A DNA stretch of 47,949 bases from a virus: IMG/VR virus record IMGVR_UViG_3300030419_000870, positions 1 through 47,949 of that record; one strand, given 5' to 3'. The position numbers and the translations under genes were made by a program. Numbering within the stretch: position 1 is the first letter of the stretch; the number at the start of each line of letters is the position of its first letter. Positions 3,426 through 47,949 of this stretch are shown one piece after another. Under the pieces are notes generated by a model that was given only the letters and a program-made list of their open reading frames with translations, was not told where the DNA came from and ran no database searches.

Positions 3426-5477
3426 ATGGCATTAGTAGAAAGTAAATTAAGTAACGCATACGAGACAACATTAGCTGCTGCATTATTAGCAGACAGTACT
3501 GATACAACAATATCAGTAGCAGTTGCACCAACAGATTCTGGTAATACTGCTATTTCTCCTTCTACTGCTACTCCTATGTATCTTATTATTGACCCTGATT
3601 CAGATACTTTAAGAGAATACATAAGAGTTACAGCTATATCTGGAACAACATTAACTGCTGTTAGAAATATTGATTCTGGTGGCGGTGGGTTAAAAGCACA
3701 CTCTATTGGAGCAAAAGTAAGACAAGCTCCTGTAGCACAAATGTTTGATGATGTTCATGATAGAATTAATACATTAATTAATACTGCTGGTACTGCAGTT
3801 AATACATCTGATGGTTTAGTTAAAGACCAAGATGATATGTCATCAAACTCTGCATCACATCTTGCAACACAACAATCTATTAAAGCATATGTAGATGCAA
3901 CTATACAAACAGAAGAAACTATAGAAGACTTTGTTGGAGGTATGTTTTCTAGTAATACAGAAACATTTATTACTGCTACATATGATGACTCTGACGGTAC
4001 ATTAGATTTAGTAGTTCCAGTTCTTGATGAAGATAATATGTCATCTGATAGTGCTAGTCATTTAGCTACACAGCAATCCATTAAAGCTTACGTAGATGAT
4101 GTTGCACAAACAACAGAAGAAGTTCAAGATATTGTAGGAGCTATGTTCTCAAGTAACACTGAGACAAACATTAGTGTTACTTATGACGATTCAGACGGAA
4201 CTATAGATTTAGTAGCAGATTTATTAACTGAAGAAGCTGTTGAAGATTATGTTGGAGGTATGGTAACTGGTAACACAGAAACCTTTATAACAGTAACATA
4301 CGAAGATAGTGATGGTACTTTAGACTTTGTAGTACCTGTTTTAGACGAAGATAATATGGCTAGTGATAGTGCAACTCACTTAGCTACTCAACAATCTATA
4401 AAAGCTTATGTTGATGGTTTAGTACAAACTGAAGAATCAATAGAAGATTTTGTAGGTGGAATGGTCACTGGTAATACTGAAACTTTTATAACAGTAACTT
4501 ATGAAGACTCAGATGGAACTATGGATTTTGTTGTTCCTGTTAAAGATGAAGACGATATGTCTTCAGATTCAGCTACACATCTAGCTACTCAACAGTCAAT
4601 TAAAGCATACGTTGATACAGTCGCACAAACTACTGAAGAGGTTCAGGATATTGTAGGTGCTATGTTTAGTAGCAATACTGAAACAAGAATATCAGCTACA
4701 TATGACGATTCAGATGGAACTATCGACCTTGTAGTTGATGATATGACTGCTGATACACAACTTACTACTGAAGCAGTACAAGACATAGTTGGAGCTATGT
4801 TTAGTTCTAATACAGAAACTAGAATAGCTGTTACTTATGATGACTCTGATGGCACTATTGATTTAGTAGTCGATGATATGACTACTAATACACAACTTAC
4901 ACAAGAACAAGTTGAAGATTATGTCGGTGGTATGTTAGATGGTGATGAAACATTTATAACAGTAGCTTACGATGATACAGATGGAAATATAGATTTTACA
5001 GTACCAGTATTAGATGAAGATGATTTCTCTTCTGATTCTGCTTCACATTTAGCAACACAACAATCAATTAAGGCTTATGTAGATGGTATAGGTGTTAGTA
5101 CAGAACAAGTACAAGATATTGTCGGTGCAATGTTTTCAAGTAATACCGAAACAAATATTACAGCAACTTATCAAGATGCAGATGGAACTATAGACTTAGT
5201 AGTTGCAGCAGTAGATAGTACAGCTATTGTAGATGGAGATTCAGACTTTACGATTGCAGATGGTACTGCTAATGGTATACATTATGAATTAGATAATACA
5301 GATATGGCTAATTGGAATGCAGGTGGTATTGCATTAACAACAGCAGGTGGAATCTTTAGACATCATCAAACACAAGCTGCAACATATACAGTAGCTGCAA
5401 ACGAAGGAGCTGTTTTAGCTGGTCCAATAACAATTACAGGGACAGTTACAAATTCTGGTACGATGGTCGTTATCTAA
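3426..5477 (+). CDS. tail fibre built from repeated modules
   Basis: This 683-aa protein has a non-repeated N-terminus (about residues 1-125, probable attachment part). Tandem modules follow: five copies of HLATQQSIKAYVD and eight of a V-G-(G/A)-M module followed by an SNTET.I..TYDDSDGT.D-type strand pair. A C-terminal beta domain (about 600-683) is different. QQSIKAYVD repeats are familiar from marine phage fibres, where they form a trimeric shaft (family knowledge). The repeats are near-identical as protein but strongly different in codons. It runs into the docking-module gene with a 1-base overlap. Confidence 0.8.
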   Translation: MALVESKLSNAYETTLAAALLADSTDTTISVAVAPTDSGNTAISPSTATPMYLIIDPDSDTLREYIRVTAISGTTLTAVRNIDSGGGGLKAHSIGAKVRQAPVAQMFDDVHDRINTLINTAGTAVNTSDGLVKDQDDMSSNSASHLATQQSIKAYVDATIQTEETIEDFVGGMFSSNTETFITATYDDSDGTLDLVVPVLDEDNMSSDSASHLATQQSIKAYVDDVAQTTEEVQDIVGAMFSSNTETNISVTYDDSDGTIDLVADLLTEEAVEDYVGGMVTGNTETFITVTYEDSDGTLDFVVPVLDEDNMASDSATHLATQQSIKAYVDGLVQTEESIEDFVGGMVTGNTETFITVTYEDSDGTMDFVVPVKDEDDMSSDSATHLATQQSIKAYVDTVAQTTEEVQDIVGAMFSSNTETRISATYDDSDGTIDLVVDDMTADTQLTTEAVQDIVGAMFSSNTETRIAVTYDDSDGTIDLVVDDMTTNTQLTQEQVEDYVGGMLDGDETFITVAYDDTDGNIDFTVPVLDEDDFSSDSASHLATQQSIKAYVDGIGVSTEQVQDIVGAMFSSNTETNITATYQDADGTIDLVVAAVDSTAIVDGDSDFTIADGTANGIHYELDNTDMANWNAGGIALTTAGGIFRHHQTQAATYTVAANEGAVLAGPITITGTVTNSGTMVVI

Positions 5478-5668
5478 TGGCTAATGTAAAAGTAAACACA
5501 ATATCGCTAGTATCTGGCAACAATGTTGCTATGTCAAATTCTTTAAATTTAAAATCATATACTACTACACAGCGTAACGCACTAACAAGTGCTGCTGGTG
5601 ATGTAATTTACAATACAACAACAAGTACAGCACAATTTTATAATGGAAGTGCTTGGTCTGATTTATAA
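5477..5668 (+). CDS. stand-alone fibre docking module
   Basis: This 63-aa protein consists only of the module that forms the N-terminus of the next two adhesins: residues 18-62 contain LNLKSYTTTQRNALTSAAGD and FYNGSAW. It overlaps both neighbours by 1 base, so it is intact and in the operon. It could be a cap or adaptor on which adhesins assemble, or the remnant of an adhesin that lost its tip; the clean stop and start favour a functional small protein. Confidence 0.65.
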   Translation: MANVKVNTISLVSGNNVAMSNSLNLKSYTTTQRNALTSAAGDVIYNTTTSTAQFYNGSAWSDL

Positions 5669-6741
5669 TGAGTACATTAGAAACAAACTCAATAGCTAAA
5701 TATTCTGGCAATAATGTTTCTATTGATGATGCTTTAAATTTAAAATCTTACACTACAACACAAAGAGATGCTTTAACTTCTGCTGCTGGAGATATCATTT
5801 ACAACTCAACTACAAATAAAACACAGTTTTACAATGGTTCAGCTTGGGCAGATACAGGTGTTTCTTTTATAGATATGGAATATTTAGTTATTGCAGGAGG
5901 TGGTGCTGGTGGACATAGTTCATCATCTGCAAAACAAGGTGGTGGCGGTGGTGCAGGAGGTTACAGAAGTAATGTTTCTGGAGAAAACACAGGTGGTAAT
6001 GTATCAACAACTAATGCTTTTACAACATATTTTATACAAAAAGGAACATCTTACACAGTAACTGTTGGTGGTGGTGGTTCTTCTAATGCAACAGGTGGTA
6101 TTGCAGGTCAAGGTTCAGATAGTAGATTTGGAAAAATAATATCTTCTGGTGGGGGTGCTGGTGGACACGGTACAGCAGAATACAGTGGTCAAACAGGTGG
6201 TTCTGGTGGTGGAGGTTCTACAGCTAATAAAGGAAAAGGAATTGCTCATCAAGGTTTTGCTGGTGGAGAATATGGTGCTATAGGTGGGGGTAACACAAAC
6301 AACGCAGGTGGTGGAGGCGGAGGTGCTAGTTCTGTAGGTGCAGATGGTGCTTCAGCTAATGGTGGTAATGGTGGTGCAGGTTTAGCTTCTGAAATAACTG
6401 GCTCTAGTGTAACTAGAGGTGGTGGTGGTGGAGGAGGAACAGGTGAAAACTCTTCTGGAGGTGCAGGAACAGCATCTGGAGGTGGTGGAGCAGGTGGCTA
6501 CAGAGCTAATGGAACTGCTGGTACTGCTAACACTGGTGGCGGTGGAGGTGGTGGAGGTTCTTATAACACTGCCAGAGATGGTGCTGCTGGAGGTTCTGGA
6601 ACAGTTATACTTAGATGGGTTACTGCTGATGCAACTATTGGTGGAACAAGAACAGGTTTAACTGATGGTGGAGTACAGACAGATGGTTCAGATTCATATA
6701 TAGTTTTTACAGCAGGAACAGGAACAGTGAGTTTTAGCTAA
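5668..6741 (+). CDS. glycine-rich tail adhesin 1
   Basis: This 357-aa protein has a docking module (residues 1-62, LNLKSYTTTQRDALTSAAGD), then a beta strand (MEYLVIAGGGAGG), then about 230 residues packed with runs of glycine, and a conserved end (GSGTVILRWVTAD plus a short beta tail). Poly-glycine regions of this type form packed glycine helices at the tips of T4-like adhesins such as gp38 of Salmonella phage S16 (family knowledge), with variable loops binding the receptor. It is a likely receptor-binding protein and the first of three paralogues. Confidence 0.75.
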   Translation: MSTLETNSIAKYSGNNVSIDDALNLKSYTTTQRDALTSAAGDIIYNSTTNKTQFYNGSAWADTGVSFIDMEYLVIAGGGAGGHSSSSAKQGGGGGAGGYRSNVSGENTGGNVSTTNAFTTYFIQKGTSYTVTVGGGGSSNATGGIAGQGSDSRFGKIISSGGGAGGHGTAEYSGQTGGSGGGGSTANKGKGIAHQGFAGGEYGAIGGGNTNNAGGGGGGASSVGADGASANGGNGGAGLASEITGSSVTRGGGGGGGTGENSSGGAGTASGGGGAGGYRANGTAGTANTGGGGGGGGSYNTARDGAAGGSGTVILRWVTADATIGGTRTGLTDGGVQTDGSDSYIVFTAGTGTVSFS

Positions 6742-7796
6742 TGAGTGAATTAAAAACAAATCAAATATCAACAAATGATGGCAATAATGTAGCTATAGAT
6801 AACTCTTTAAATTTAAAATCTTACGATACAACTGCACGAAATGCACTTACATCAGTTGCTGGAGATATGATATATAATACTACAACTTCAGCAGTAGAAG
6901 TATATGATGGTTCATCTTGGACTTCTGGTACCAAAGTAGTAACAGTTGACTATTTGGTTGTTGGTGCTGGAGGAGGCGGCGGCAAATCAGGTCAACATAA
7001 TCTTGGATTAGGAGGTGCTGGTGGAGGTGGAGTTTTAGCAAGTTATAATAATGAAGCCTCTGGAGGTGGTGATACTTCTTTAGAAAGTTTAACTTTATTA
7101 GCTGATGGTTCAACAACATATACAGTTACTGTTGGAGCAGGAGGCACAGGTGGTACTAATATAGGAAATCAAGGTGGATTTACAGAGTTTAGTGTTATAT
7201 CTGCTAGTGGTGGAGGAGCAGGAGCGCAAAGATACGCAAGTGCAGCTCAAAAACCTGGTGGTTCTGGTGGTGGTGGTACTGCAATAAATGGTCCTGCTGC
7301 AGGTCTTCCAAATCAAGGTTATGGCGGTGGTACAGGTAATAACTTCACAGGTAATAATAATGACCACGCTGCAGCTGGTGGTGGTGGTGCTAGTGCCGTT
7401 GGTGCTAATTCTAGTGGAGGCACAGGTGGTGCTGGTGGAGCTGGATTAGCTTCTACAATTACTGGTTCTTCAGTAACATACGCTGGTGGAGGCGGCGGTG
7501 GTGGAGGAACTGGCGGTGGCGGTGCTGGAGGAACTGGTGGCGGTGGTGCTGGTGGCGGACAAGCTGATGGTTCAAATGGAACTGCTAATACTGGCGGTGG
7601 AGGCGGTGGTTCTTATGGAAGCACAACTGCTGATAGAGATGGTGGAAATGGTGGTTCTGGAATAATTATTTTAAGATATCCAACAGCAGATGCAACTATT
7701 ACAGTTGGTTCAGGTATAACTTCATCAAGTGCAACAGATGGTAGTGATACAGTAATAAGTATGACAGCAGGAACAGGAACAGTTACATTCGCATAA
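6741..7796 (+). CDS. glycine-rich tail adhesin 2
   Basis: This 351-aa paralogue has the same layout as adhesin 1: docking module (LNLKSYDTTARNALTSVAGD), VDYLVVGAGGGGG, glycine-run body and the SGIIILRYPTADAT end. The glycine-run body differs in its loops, as expected for different receptor specificity. It starts on the stop codon of adhesin 1 (1-base overlap). A promoter-like sequence and an accessory gene follow. Confidence 0.75.
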   Translation: MSELKTNQISTNDGNNVAIDNSLNLKSYDTTARNALTSVAGDMIYNTTTSAVEVYDGSSWTSGTKVVTVDYLVVGAGGGGGKSGQHNLGLGGAGGGGVLASYNNEASGGGDTSLESLTLLADGSTTYTVTVGAGGTGGTNIGNQGGFTEFSVISASGGGAGAQRYASAAQKPGGSGGGGTAINGPAAGLPNQGYGGGTGNNFTGNNNDHAAAGGGGASAVGANSSGGTGGAGGAGLASTITGSSVTYAGGGGGGGGTGGGGAGGTGGGGAGGGQADGSNGTANTGGGGGGSYGSTTADRDGGNGGSGIIILRYPTADATITVGSGITSSSATDGSDTVISMTAGTGTVTFA

Positions 7797-18772: not shown

Positions 18773-19078
18773 TTAAGATGTAGGGTCGTACCACTTATAT
18801 TTCAAAGTTAATTCTTCACCAATTATTAATTGAACTAATGTTTTTAATATATAACCATGGTTTAATTCAACAATTTCACAGTTAGGAAACTCACTATGAT
18901 TAATAAAGCCACCTAATGGTGTTCTTATAAGGCCATCTTTAAATGCTTTATGGTCATTTTTAATGTGAGTTATTCCTAATATCTTTCCTTTTCTTATAGG
19001 TTTGGTCGCAAATAAACCTAACCCATCTACTTTAGACCTTTTAATTGTAAGAGTATCTGGTAGTGGTCTATAATTCAT
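18773..19078 (-). CDS. compact SET-domain protein (predicted lysine methyltransferase)
   Basis: This 101-aa protein is a nearly bare SET domain: GLGLFATKPIRKGK (residues 19-32, SAM-binding N-motif), GGFINHSEFPNCE (56-68, the NHS..PNC core), GYILKT and IGEELTLKY (86-94, with the catalytic Tyr). No post-SET cysteines are present. The minimal size is like the 119-aa vSET of a chlorella virus (family knowledge). It would transfer methyl groups from SAM to a protein lysine; the target is unknown. The start overlaps the upstream gene by 11 bases and this is the last gene of the early operon. Confidence 0.8.
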   Translation of the reverse strand: MNYRPLPDTLTIKRSKVDGLGLFATKPIRKGKILGITHIKNDHKAFKDGLIRTPLGGFINHSEFPNCEIVELNHGYILKTLVQLIIGEELTLKYKWYDPTS

Positions 19079-43856: not shown

Positions 43857-44962
43857 TGGCATTAGTTCAAATGAGAACTGATGGTGGTTCCTATTCTATG
43901 GTTGACCCTGTTCTTGTAAGCGATTATCAAGATATGGGTTGGACACTTACAAGTGATTTACCTGAGTTTCAACAAGATGTAACTGGTTATGGTGCAAATG
44001 TAAAAGTATATAATCCAGATAGAACAGTTACATTAGATAGTGGTGATACTATTAAATATCAACCTGAAATTACAGGTTATGTAAATACTGGTGGAGGAAT
44101 GCAAACTCCTGTTATTTCACCACCTACTACTAAAAGTGGAAGTACTACTATATCAAGTCCTACATTTACATATTCTCAAGGGTTAGATGTTGCTAGAGCT
44201 ATATATACATTTTTAGATGATAATTTATTAGATATTTTTGCAAAAGAATGGGCTAAATATGGTGACCCTCAAGTAGCAATAGGATTAACTAGAAAAAGTT
44301 CTGAATGGGAAAATCAATTTGGATATTTAAAACGAGCTGATGGAACATTAATTATGTCAGAACTAGATGCTATAGGTAATATAACTTCTTATAAAAATAC
44401 TTTAAAAGAATATAATATTTCAGATTTTAGTTTATTTGAGAAAAAATTTGAAGGAATGGTTGCAAGTGGTGTATCACCATTAGAATTTCAAGATAGAATT
44501 GATTTAGTTTATAACGCAGTAATTGATGATATACCAGAAGTTCAAAGATTATATGCTGAACAATATGGTATTAATGCATCTAAAGAAGCTATATTTGGCG
44601 CATTAATAAACAAAGATGTAGAAGATGCAGTATTAGCTAATGAAATTACAACACTTCAATTACAAGCAGAAGGTACTTCTAGAGGATTTTCTACATCATT
44701 TGCTAGAGCTGATGAATTAAGATTACTAGGTTTAGATAGAAGTGGAGCAAGTAAACTTTATGAATCTGCTTCTAATGTAATGAGTAGAGCTGGAAGAGCT
44801 GGAAGAACATTAGGATTAGATACTTTAGAATCTGCAGCAGTAGGTAATGTAGATGCACAACAAGATATTATGCGTACTGAAGCACAGGTATTATCACAAA
44901 GCAGTATGCAAACTGGTTTACTAAAAAAAGATGGTAAAGTTACTGGACTTCTTGAAACTTAG
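43856..44962 (+). CDS. unknown virion-block protein
   Basis: This 368-aa protein has an N-terminal beta region and Thr/Ser/Pro-rich linker (about residues 75-105), then a long helical part, ending with a small-residue helix (SRAGRAGRTLGLDTLESAAV). It is the last gene before the promoter and structured leader of the scaffold/capsid unit. Confidence 0.6.
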   Translation: MALVQMRTDGGSYSMVDPVLVSDYQDMGWTLTSDLPEFQQDVTGYGANVKVYNPDRTVTLDSGDTIKYQPEITGYVNTGGGMQTPVISPPTTKSGSTTISSPTFTYSQGLDVARAIYTFLDDNLLDIFAKEWAKYGDPQVAIGLTRKSSEWENQFGYLKRADGTLIMSELDAIGNITSYKNTLKEYNISDFSLFEKKFEGMVASGVSPLEFQDRIDLVYNAVIDDIPEVQRLYAEQYGINASKEAIFGALINKDVEDAVLANEITTLQLQAEGTSRGFSTSFARADELRLLGLDRSGASKLYESASNVMSRAGRAGRTLGLDTLESAAVGNVDAQQDIMRTEAQVLSQSSMQTGLLKKDGKVTGLLET

Positions 44963-44964
44963 TG

Positions 44965-44970
44965 TATAAT
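44965..44970 (+). promoter_or_regulatory. promoter -10 box for scaffold/capsid unit
   Basis: TATAAT preceded by TG lies 3 bases behind the stop of the previous gene. No strong -35 box is visible. It would produce a 5' leader of about 190 nt ahead of the scaffold gene. Confidence 0.55.
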
Positions 44971-44976
44971 AGTTTT

Positions 44977-45160
44977 ATGCGTTGCGTGGTCCGCTAAAAT
45001 AGACCTGCATCAGCTTTCAAAGCCTGCGTAGAAAGCTTGTATTTAAACCGCAGAGTAAGGACTTAGGGATTAGTTACCCAGCCCAAAAGTCAAGTGTGAA
45101 GGGTAACACCGCGGCTAGGTTCCACAGGCTTAGTCTGATAGGTAAACACTGTGAGGAGGT
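44977..45160 (+). ncRNA. structured 5' leader RNA of the scaffold/capsid transcript
   Basis: This gene-free stretch is visibly richer in G and C than its surroundings. Pairings seen: AGCTTTC (45012-45018) with GAAAGCT (45031-45037); CTGCG in that loop (45024-45028) with CGCAG (45049-45053), giving an H-type pseudoknot; GTTACCC (45073-45079) with GGGTAAC (45101-45107); GGACTTAG (45059-45066) with CTAGGTTCC (45115-45123), enclosing the latter; and CACAG (45123-45127) with CTGTG (45149-45153), next to the AGGAGG ribosome site. It could stabilise the capsid mRNA or control translation; no known family fits. Confidence 0.65.
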
Positions 45161-45165
45161 ACGAA

Positions 45166-45636
45166 ATGGACGAATTTGAAGCACCAGAAAACTCAGGTGC
45201 AAAGGCAATGCGTGAAACCATTGATAGAAAGAGTGATGAGAACGCTAAATTAAAAGCGGAATTAGAAGCTCTTAAGACTGAAAAGATGGATGGAATATTC
45301 CAACAGATGGGTCTTGATTCATCAAAAGGTTTTGGTAAAGCCCTAAAACAAGTGTATGACGGAGAAGCTAATTTAGAAGCAGTCTCCGAATTTGCAAAAG
45401 CCGAGTATGGTTACGAGGCAGGCAATGTGGCCCAAGAGGAAGTCACACCCCCTGTTGAAGAACAACCTGCGGTAGTTGACGATGCGAGAGCTAGAGTTGC
45501 AGCCCTTGATTCAAATTCAGAAAGTGAAGTGCCAATGGATGTTCTGGAGCAGCTCCAGGAGATTGTTGCTAAAGGTACTCCGAAAGATAGTATCAGAGCA
45601 AAACTTACTCTACAGGAACAAGCTAAGAACTCTTAA
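45166..45636 (+). CDS. scaffolding protein
   Basis: This 156-aa protein starts at ATG 45166 with AGGAGG 6 bases upstream; the in-frame GTG at 45151 overlaps the ribosome site and is rejected. It is acidic, with a coiled coil at residues 18-45 (SDENAKLKAELEALKTEKMD), a flexible Pro/Glu middle and a helical C-terminus with basic end (LTLQEQAKNS). This is the usual layout of capsid scaffolds, and the capsid gene follows at once. Base composition is less AT-biased than the neighbouring genes. Confidence 0.75.
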   Translation: MDEFEAPENSGAKAMRETIDRKSDENAKLKAELEALKTEKMDGIFQQMGLDSSKGFGKALKQVYDGEANLEAVSEFAKAEYGYEAGNVAQEEVTPPVEEQPAVVDDARARVAALDSNSESEVPMDVLEQLQEIVAKGTPKDSIRAKLTLQEQAKNS

Positions 45637-45676
45637 ATATAAGTACAAGCTAAACAACTAAATACGGAGGTATAAA

Positions 45677-46816
45677 ATGGCAAGCATAAGCTTGACAAAT
45701 AATACAATTTACTCCCAGAATATTAATAATTTTACTGGTGAGTTATTTCGTGTTGGTGGTCAAAGGACTCCCTTCCTCTCCGCAATCGGTGGTTTAAATG
45801 GCGGTAAGGTATTACAGTCAACTTTTTGGCAAATTCAAGTAGCTGATAGTGCAACAATTTCTTCTGAACCTACTAAAGGTCAAGAAGGTGCTCAACCTAC
45901 AGAATACTTAGGTAGAGACAGAGTTGCATTTACAGGCGTTACTCAGGTTTTCCATAAAGGTGTAAAAATGTCTTATACTGCTATGGCTACTTATCAACAT
46001 CAAAATCCATTTGACTTGAGTGCAAATATTATTAACTCTTCAGATGGTGATGGAACAGTTACAGCAGCTGACAAATTAGGTCTAGCTGGTGGTAACCCAA
46101 TTGTTGATGAGTTCTCAGAGCAATTAACTTTAGCTCTTGAGAAATTAGCAAGAGAAGTAGAATGGTTCGCATTTAACGGAACATTCGCTGACGGTGCTAA
46201 TACAACCCCTGGTTCAGGAACAAGAGAAATGCGTGGTTTATATGAGTATCTACAGTTAAACAAGAATGCTAGCAATACTGCAGCTTCTGTTGCTAACGGT
46301 GGTAATGCTTATTACAACGACACAGATGGAGATGACACAGGAACAAGACAAAAGATGACATGGGATACTGTCGCTGGAGTCATGAAGAGAATGTATGATG
46401 CTCAGGCACCAATGATTCAACCTGTTCTTGTTGTAACTCCAGGTCAACTTCTATCTCTTAACAAAGAGTTAGTAGAAGCCACAAGTCCTGCAACAGCAAT
46501 GAACGCAGCTATCCTACCAAGAGATAGAAATATCGCAGGTGTTGATATCGATACAATCGTTACTCCTTTCGGAGCTATCGGATTGATGGTTATCGACCCT
46601 AACATAATGCCTAACTCTAAGGGTGCAGCTTTCTTGCTTGACTTTGCTTTCATACAACCAGTGTTCACAAATATCCCAGGATATGGAACAGTGTTTGTTA
46701 GAGACTTAGACCAAGACGATTACGCAAGAGTTGGTAAGGCAGTATACATGGAGATGGGAATTGATTTCGGTCCTCCAGGATATCACTGCGTTATCCACAA
46801 CGTAACACAAGAATAA
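45677..46816 (+). CDS. major capsid protein (HK97-fold, SU10-like)
   Basis: This 379-aa protein has GGAGG before the ATG. The sequence pattern GGQRTPFLSAIGG, GVTQVFHKGVKMSYTAMATY, KLAREVEWFAFNGTF (E-loop and spine helix region) and the late beta strands (FGAIGLMVIDP, AAFLLDFAF) fit the SU10/DUF5309-type HK97-fold capsid proteins. About 379 residues is normal for the family. It is the most GC-rich, best-translated-looking gene of the window. The end is duplicated at 1-47. Confidence 0.85.
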   Translation: MASISLTNNTIYSQNINNFTGELFRVGGQRTPFLSAIGGLNGGKVLQSTFWQIQVADSATISSEPTKGQEGAQPTEYLGRDRVAFTGVTQVFHKGVKMSYTAMATYQHQNPFDLSANIINSSDGDGTVTAADKLGLAGGNPIVDEFSEQLTLALEKLAREVEWFAFNGTFADGANTTPGSGTREMRGLYEYLQLNKNASNTAASVANGGNAYYNDTDGDDTGTRQKMTWDTVAGVMKRMYDAQAPMIQPVLVVTPGQLLSLNKELVEATSPATAMNAAILPRDRNIAGVDIDTIVTPFGAIGLMVIDPNIMPNSKGAAFLLDFAFIQPVFTNIPGYGTVFVRDLDQDDYARVGKAVYMEMGIDFGPPGYHCVIHNVTQE

Positions 46817-46864
46817 ATTAAAAGAACTTTGGGAGTAGCTCCACCTGCTCCCATTGTTCTGCTA
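46770..46864. repeat. 95-bp exact direct repeat, right copy (pairs with 1-95)
   Basis: Identical to bases 1-95. It contains the capsid 3' end and its hairpin. Identity stops at 46865; from there on genes correspond one to one with the left end but with many substitutions and one additional gene. Confidence 0.95.
46830..46853 (+). terminator. hairpin behind capsid gene, possible weak terminator
   Basis: The same 9-bp stem (TGGGAGTAG with CTGCTCCCA) as at 61-84, 13 bases behind the capsid stop and followed by TTGTTCTGCT. It may lower transcription of the tail genes relative to capsid. Confidence 0.55.
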
Positions 46865-46892
46865 AGATAATAAGGATTAAGAGAAAGATTTT

Positions 46893-47222
46893 ATGGCTAA
46901 TAAAATACAAAATGTGAAGTATACAGGTAGTGCAACAGCATCACCATCAATTGATTTACACTCTAAATTAGTATGTGGTTTCTTACCAGGTGCTGATTGG
47001 AATGGTACAACTATTACTTTCAAGTACTCCTCAGATGGAGCAGCTTGGAAAGATGTAAAAGAAACAGATGGTAGTGCAGTAAGTTATACAGTTGCTGCTG
47101 ATGATGTAACAAGGTGTGACCCTAGTGGTTGGGCTTTTGCATCAGGAGGATATTTACAAATAATATCTGGTTCTACTGAAGATACTAGCTCAGAAATAAA
47201 AGTTTTATTAAGAAGTAGTTAG
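46893..47222 (+). CDS. small virion-associated protein behind capsid (right variant)
   Basis: This 109-aa homologue of 124-453 has the same length and the same start MANKIQNVKYTGS. Differences are concentrated at KETDG (KNSSG on the left) and VTRCDPSGWAF (VAVVDPKDWYF), as in surface loops. It is a strain variant of the same gene rather than an obvious second function. Confidence 0.8.
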   Translation: MANKIQNVKYTGSATASPSIDLHSKLVCGFLPGADWNGTTITFKYSSDGAAWKDVKETDGSAVSYTVAADDVTRCDPSGWAFASGGYLQIISGSTEDTSSEIKVLLRSS

Positions 47223-47230
47223 GAGCATCA

Positions 47231-47425
47231 ATGAGTATGCTCTTAATGCTTAAAGAAGGTAGAGCTTTAGAAATAGATTCTAAAGGTAGTACACCTATAC
47301 AAGAATCATATCCATTAGAAGACGCTGTACCTGTAAGTGAAGTACGTAGTGCTACCTTTGGTATGGCTATGTTTGGACAATCACACTTTGCTAAAACAGT
47401 AAATGCAGAAGATAAGGCAGCTTAA
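47231..47425 (+). CDS. unknown 64-aa protein present only in the right variant
   Basis: It begins MSMLLMLKEGRALEIDSKGS and has a Gly/Met/Phe-rich patch ATFGMAMFGQSHF. It is inserted between the small virion protein and the adaptor, where the left end has only 9 bases. The start and stop fit the neighbours (TAATG overlap with the adaptor). It is a gene-content difference between the two variants; function unknown. Confidence 0.6.
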   Translation: MSMLLMLKEGRALEIDSKGSTPIQESYPLEDAVPVSEVRSATFGMAMFGQSHFAKTVNAEDKAA

Positions 47426-47949
47426 TGAGTACAAATGTAAGAGGATTAATAGATAGAGTTTTTAGAGAATATCTAGAACCAAATGATGATTTAAATTCAT
47501 ATACTGCATTAGCTTCAGGAATATCTAATAGTGCAACTTCAATATCTTTTAACGCAGACCTTTTGACACAAGAAGAAGAAGATGTTATGGACGCAGGAAC
47601 TATAATTGAATGCGACCAAGAACTTATGTATTGTACAGATGTAGATACAGTTAATAACACAGTTACAGTTGTTAGAGGTGTTAGAGGTACAAGTGCAGAT
47701 TCACATGATGCTGGTGCAATTTTAAAGATTGCTCCTGTATTTACACGTAAAGCTGTGTTTGATGCTGTATCAGACCAGATAACAAATCTTTATCCAACAT
47801 TATATGCTGTTGAAACTAAAGAAGTAACAAGTGGTACTGGTTATACATTACTTGGAAGTTATGATTCACCAGGTACAAATAATTATTTGGTAACTCCTAT
47901 AAAAGCTATATCTCAATATACAGACTGGTCTGCAGGTTCAGACCAAACA
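47425..47949 (+). CDS. head-tail adaptor-like protein, 5' part (right variant, runs off window)
   Basis: The first 175 codons, homologous to 463-1455. It begins MSTNVRGLIDRVFREYLEP and shares VFDAVSDQITNLYPTLYAVE. It is strongly diverged in the segment after residue 25 but nearly identical around residues 105-125 and 150-170. The 3' end lies outside the window. Confidence 0.8.
   Translation, partial: MSTNVRGLIDRVFREYLEPNDDLNSYTALASGISNSATSISFNADLLTQEEEDVMDAGTIIECDQELMYCTDVDTVNNTVTVVRGVRGTSADSHDAGAILKIAPVFTRKAVFDAVSDQITNLYPTLYAVETKEVTSGTGYTLLGSYDSPGTNNYLVTPIKAISQYTDWSAGSDQT

Follow-up and report, generated by a model that had tools for sequence, protein, structure and literature searches.

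A leader RNA of tandem pseudoknots upstream of the scaffold and capsid genes in a group of marine phages

The mRNA for the scaffold and capsid proteins of a marine phage is predicted to begin with four H-type pseudoknots in tandem (PK0–PK3, eight helices), which lie between a −10 promoter box and the ribosome site of the scaffold gene and almost certainly form a cis-acting leader of that mRNA. We identified them in a 47,949-nt stretch of viral DNA (the window, positions 1-47,949 of IMG/VR record IMGVR_UViG_3300030419_000870; Table 1). The leader is roughly 190 bases long from the −10 box to the ribosome site, and follows a gene whose stop lies at 44962; from the sequence, the transcript is predicted to start near 44977. 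The gap contains no sense ORF of at least 40 aa in the window, and has a G+C content of ~47%, compared with ~30% in the DNA upstream. A preliminary description of the window had pointed out the TATAAT box, the gene-free gap and the raised G+C, all of which we found as stated. Its proposal of a structured, pseudoknot-bearing RNA ahead of the scaffold and capsid genes is borne out by strong covariation, both in the alignment of close homologues (A1) and in two diverged leader types (B and C) described below. On a larger scale (44960-46800), G+C steps up at the leader from ~0.26-0.36 to 0.38-0.50 across the scaffold and capsid genes. The scaffold gene was named from its position before the gene for the major head protein: its product matches a family without assigned function, phrog_7813, and the annotation head scaffolding protein is given to the genes in this place in Mycobacterium phages Bernal13 and Gaia.

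Table 1. Positions of the leader elements and adjoining genes in the window
Feature	Coordinates	Strand	Description
−10 promoter box, TATAAT	44965..44970	+	Invariant in 39/39 aligned type A leaders
PK0, 5′-terminal H-type pseudoknot	44978..45008	+	S1 44978-44981/44992-44995, TGCG/CGCT (in the window the outermost pair is T.T); S2 44984-44991/45002-45008, GCGTGGTC/GACCTGC
PK1, H-type pseudoknot	45012..45053	+	S1 45012-45018/45031-45037; S2 45024-45028/45049-45053
PK2, pseudoknot	45060..45107	+	S1 45060-45066/45085-45091; S2 45073-45078/45102-45107
PK3, H-type pseudoknot	45113..45155	+	S1 45113-45119/45129-45135; S2 45122-45127/45149-45155
Shine-Dalgarno GGAGG of scaffold gene	45155..45159	+	Invariant in 39 leaders; 6 nt 5′ of ATG 45166; adjoins PK3
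Scaffold gene	45166..45636	+	ORF; ATG 45166 shares the frame of the GTG listed at 45151
Major capsid protein gene	45677..46816	+	phrog_1328 major head protein, E 1.2e-27
Terminator-like hairpin	46830..46853	+	14 nt 3′ of capsid stop; TGGGAGTAG-CTCCAC-CTGCTCCCA, then a T-rich stretch

We drew the eight-helix structure (48 pairs, 1870 cells) by eye from A1, an alignment of 39 distinct homologous leaders in 206 columns. In this alignment 98.0% of the cells pair, compared with 92.3% in shuffles, and both sides have changed at 19 of the 48 pairs, compared with 10.1. Double-changed cells, which count sequences and not independent events, number 91 against 17.9 in shuffles; none of 500 shuffles matched A1 on double-changed pairs or cells. 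When the partners were slid by 1-3 columns, pairing fell to 30-40%, a control that alone would flatter the model, as the structure was written from the same alignment. The chief evidence for the fold is the exact exchanges at many positions, and each of PK0–PK3 has at least one stem with compensatory changes. Furthermore, G-U pairs greatly outnumber A-C mismatches (163 and 15, respectively, in three alignments), indicating that the sense RNA is the molecule under selection.

The helices of PK0 are paired in 90.4% (S1) and 99.1% (S2) of the cells of A1, and its double changes replace G-C and C-G by A-U. PK1 contains the 7-bp hairpin of the preliminary description (S1, AGCTTTC/GAAAGCT), whose loop CTGCG pairs downstream with CGCAG to form S2, as had been proposed; the element is real and conserved. 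S2 is 100% paired, with an A-U/G-C exchange in nine sequences. S1 shows zero compensatory changes within A1, in which four rows are off by one base at this helix, explaining most of the unpaired cells there. It is rewritten with its pairing kept as GATTTC/GAAATC in loci L084, L106 and L144, as GATTTTG/CAAAATC in L090, and as CGATAGG/CCTATTG in L100 and L105. In PK2, S1 and S2 are 97% and 100% paired, with double changes at four and three pairs, respectively; the final two pairs of S1 are absent in the window itself. Both stems of PK3 are 100% paired and have double changes at five and three pairs, with at most three pair types per position; its loops are 2-3, 1 and 13 bases long, and loop sizes throughout the leader suit H-type pseudoknots. 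PK3 S2 (CCACAG/CTGTGaG) is the stem that had been noted to end beside AGGAGG; it is likewise genuine and conserved, and terminates on the first G of GGAGG. Two unpaired motifs are also conserved, GAGTAA 3′ of PK1 and TCAAGTG within PK2. An 8-bp helix enclosing a 7-bp stem had been proposed as well. The stem, GTTACC(C)/(G)GGTAAC, holds and corresponds to PK2 S2, but the enclosing helix, GGACTTAG/CTAGG(T)TTCC, does not: 61.2% of homologue cells pair, compared with 67-77% after one-column slides, and shuffles do equally well. PK0, PK2 S1 and PK3 S1 were absent from that description.

Conventional predictions did not reveal this fold. The nested minimum-energy fold of the window leader (−47 kcal/mol) is unremarkable, with 172 of 200 shuffles folding equally well, because the energy model is blind to pseudoknots. 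The RNAalifold consensus recovered part of the structure but cannot represent the two stems of a pseudoknot together, and its local hairpin at PK1 is lost in L100 and L105. The leader is a new structured RNA of an undescribed family. As anticipated, no known family matched: Rfam 15 at the curated gathering score gave zero matches in the window and in loci L053, L070 and L105, and a permissive search of the leader returned just two chance lncRNA matches (E 5 and 7). ARAGORN found no tRNA or tmRNA, and literature searches found no description of the leader RNA. We rejected a small-ORF reading, as the longest complete sense ORF ranges from 8 to 51 aa across the leaders and the loops vary by single bases. 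Thus, neither a lack of covariation nor a conserved small ORF, the outcomes named beforehand as speaking against a structured RNA, was seen.

Nearly all of 120 distinct upstream regions bear one of a few leader types. Besides type A, to which the window belongs, there are two diverged lineages with different sequence, in which three tandem pseudoknots with compensatory changes occupy the same place. Type B (27 distinct sequences, 33 pairs) has 96.3% of its cells paired, a score lowered by some rows in shifted register at the last helix, and 62 double-changed cells, compared with 19.9 in shuffles; in its counterpart of PK0, three pairs are doubly changed, in 21 cells. Type C (28 sequences, 32 pairs) has 97.4% of cells paired and 83 double-changed cells, compared with 24.9 in shuffles; one of its six helices (63-67/91-95) is invariant and therefore unproven. 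Types A and B share a common frame, GGTC/GACC in PK0 and CCTAC/GTAG in PK1, and thus are probably homologous. In a hybrid type, PK0 and PK1 of type A are joined to a last pseudoknot resembling that of type C. Between lineages, then, the architecture is kept more than the sequence. A fourth leader sequence, unlike A, B and C, occupies the corresponding site in L221, ~600-800 bases 5′ of the capsid gene.

An exact 16-mer from PK0 is present in 96 viral contigs, of which we fetched 80. In 74 of these it lies 5′ of the scaffold gene or at the usual place of that gene; the remaining six matches, in contigs without structural genes and with no credible leader by the covariance model, we regard as chance. 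Of 69 contigs with the PK1–PK2 pattern, 68 have it where expected, the exception (L277) being a contig without structural genes. Starting from the capsid protein, which has 213 candidate relatives in IMG/VR, we fetched 80 loci, and 44 of them carry a leader alignable to that of the window. Capsid relatives among named phages infect Mycobacterium, Propionibacterium and Bifidobacterium, and one Actinomycetota MAG (RS345) holds two relatives, one with a type A and one with a type C leader. Judging from this one MAG and the distant capsid relatives, the host is probably an actinobacterium, and the leader is carried by a large marine phage group probably infecting Actinomycetota. In the cultured relatives Bernal13, Gaia and B22 the gap before the scaffold gene is 69, 42 and 201 nt, respectively; the leader model had no match in any of five cultured relatives tested.

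Leader type requires three changes, the minimum, on both the scaffold tree and the tree of the upstream protein, compared with 11 on the capsid tree. The leader is thus inherited with its neighbours, while capsid genes are swapped between lineages; hopping of leader types among phages is ruled out by the agreement of the upstream-gene and scaffold trees with leader type. That the leader serves differing capsid genes argues against its recognition by the capsid protein.

Both ends of the putative transcript are structured. Across the types, nearly every leader has TATAAT or TATACT 7-11 nt 5′ of its first paired base (mostly 8-9 nt in type A, 8-11 nt in type B and 7 nt in type C), the few odd spacings being due to ambiguous −10 matches. 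Taking the usual start as 7 bases past the −10 box, this spacing fits a predicted 0-4 unpaired bases at the RNA 5′ end, which would be almost buried in three different sequences. Downstream of the capsid stop, a hairpin with a T-rich tail, its stem changed yet pairing, is found at 110 of 114 homologous loci. The loop of this hairpin (CTCCAC, ATCCACC or similar) and the TTCTGCT that follows are near-constant across lineages, while the stem is variable; the near-constant loop suggests that the hairpin is more than a plain terminator. Together, the scaffold and capsid genes resemble a single transcription unit whose two ends are structured.

The explanation that we favour, tentatively and as somewhat short of an even chance, is that the scaffold-capsid mRNA is armoured at its 5′ end by the leader, which would also serve as its translation platform. 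This mRNA would start from a promoter of its own where the upstream gene ends; PK0 would follow directly after the first 0-4 bases, and PK1–PK3 would continue, with little unpaired RNA, up to the Shine-Dalgarno sequence. The array would hide the 5′ end from pyrophosphohydrolase and from 5′-end-sensing RNases such as RNase E/G, which need it single-stranded, and would offer RNases little unpaired RNA inside the leader, leading to a long mRNA life. Being compact, the leader could not pair with the ribosome site, allowing ribosomes to load at the full rate, and the hairpin 3′ of the capsid gene would close the other end of the unit. The transcript start, the protection from RNases and the effect on translation are features that we infer.

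The stabilisation of the mRNA, already raised in the preliminary description, would fit the anatomy of the leader, and conservation of architecture above sequence is expected of a mechanical role. RppH and RNase E require single-stranded 5′ ends, and structure at the 5′ end stabilises mRNA (PMC3997798). The MAG holding the type A and type C phage contigs encodes an RNase E/G; RNase J was not found in this, possibly incomplete, MAG. Against protection as the role, a single 5′ hairpin suffices to protect an mRNA, so that four pseudoknots seem to exceed the apparent need, and the conserved unpaired GAGTAA and TCAAGTG hint at a specific partner. A broader form of the armour reading is possible though rather doubtful: the leader would exemplify a new class of phage RNA, a modular tandem-pseudoknot 5′ armour and the counterpart, among bacterial viruses, of nuclease-resistant viral RNAs. 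In streamlined marine Actinomycetota it would make capsid mRNA exceptionally long-lived, and it would have been retained over long evolution while its sequence was rewritten lineage by lineage.

In a rival reading, the scaffold protein, or a different protein of the phage, would bind the pseudoknots and steady PK3 over the ribosome site, so that scaffold synthesis stops once capsid assembly is saturated. The scaffold protein of phage P22 regulates itself post-transcriptionally. T4 gene 32, whose product gp32 acts on its leader pseudoknot, provides a phage precedent for autoregulation (PMC3014915). PK3 S2 does end on the first G of GGAGG, but GGAGG remains mostly unpaired. Similarly, leader type follows scaffold lineage without exception (three changes, compared with 11 on the capsid tree), but it agrees equally well with the upstream gene, so vertical inheritance, with the capsid gene moving, explains the linkage. 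Moreover, PK0 and PK1 of type A persist with scaffold proteins that are just 29-32% identical (L100, L105 and L119). We consider autoregulation of this kind unlikely.

It is less probable still that the nascent leader binds RNA polymerase and allows read-through of late-operon terminators. An RNA of this kind, putRNA, exists in phage HK022, and it is likewise a cis-acting phage leader with a conserved fold; it acts, however, in an early operon, where it targets RNA polymerase (PMC9378689). The leader described here is promoter-proximal and heads a late transcription unit, with the terminator-like hairpin downstream of the capsid gene as a possible target. Yet a conserved hairpin right after that gene suggests a wanted transcript end, and structure extending to the ribosome site is not needed for antitermination; to our knowledge, put does not consist of pseudoknots in tandem. 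Similarly improbable is a role purely in translation, in which the array would enhance or meter it by recruiting or positioning 30S subunits without affecting decay. The Shine-Dalgarno region lies within ~10 nt of the last pseudoknot in the types read, and the most abundant virion proteins are encoded in the unit that the scaffold gene heads, but the 5′-terminal place of the first pseudoknot in every lineage would be left unexplained. Finally, although its size (~190 nt) and ornate fold recall phi29 pRNA, the leader is very unlikely to be released as a separate, packaged or trans-acting RNA, as the preliminary description had also suggested: type A leaders were found only just 5′ of the scaffold gene, a model search found no copies in 198 other Actinomycetota genomes sampled, no terminator precedes the scaffold gene in the window, and the last helix, PK3 S2, extends into the ribosome site by one base.

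Among known leaders, that of gene 32 in T4, T2 and RB69 likewise places an H-type pseudoknot 5′ of the ribosome site of a phage mRNA. It has one pseudoknot, in contrast to three or four here, followed by an unstructured A+U-rich operator that is absent here, where PK3 directly adjoins GGAGG, and it precedes the gene for a single-stranded DNA-binding protein and not capsid-assembly genes. The 5′ stabiliser of E. coli ompA resembles our leader, as predicted, in its paired 5′ end, abundant mRNA and strong ribosome site; it is a simple hairpin, whereas consecutive pseudoknots occupy the whole leader here. Several H-type pseudoknots in series occur in tmRNA and in the 3′ UTR pseudoknot domains of plant viruses. 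The former has a tRNA-like domain and a tag ORF, neither of which we found, and the latter are 3′ elements of RNA viruses. The manA and wcaG motifs of Rfam are structured RNAs of marine metagenomes and phages (PMC2864571), associated with metabolic genes and T4-like cyanophages; the leader has no Rfam match.

The leader family occurs in about 100 or more marine phage contigs, and the evidence for its four pseudoknots in a row is unusually clean. As the architecture is kept while the sequence changes in several lineages, RNAs that differ widely can all inform on one function. The leader provides a test case for whether pseudoknots at the 5′ end of a bacterial mRNA block decay, and bears on how phages boost capsid synthesis within a shared late operon. 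Since nested-only prediction misses the fold completely, leaders like it may be common yet have escaped notice.

Several other features of the window were noted. Its two ends (46770-47949 and 1-975) encode the same genes, with 85% and 73% DNA identity. The contig seems to exceed one genome length, continuing into a copy or a related strain, and chimeric ends are thus possible. Record IMGVR_UViG_3300020468_000009 also has two capsid genes (L224 and L237). Adjacent long ORFs at 3819-7783, which possibly encode tail or fibre proteins, are rich in imperfect repeats (67-77% identity), both inside single ORFs and from one ORF to the next. A small ORF on the minus strand (18773-19078) has a partial match to a SET domain (E 6e-8).
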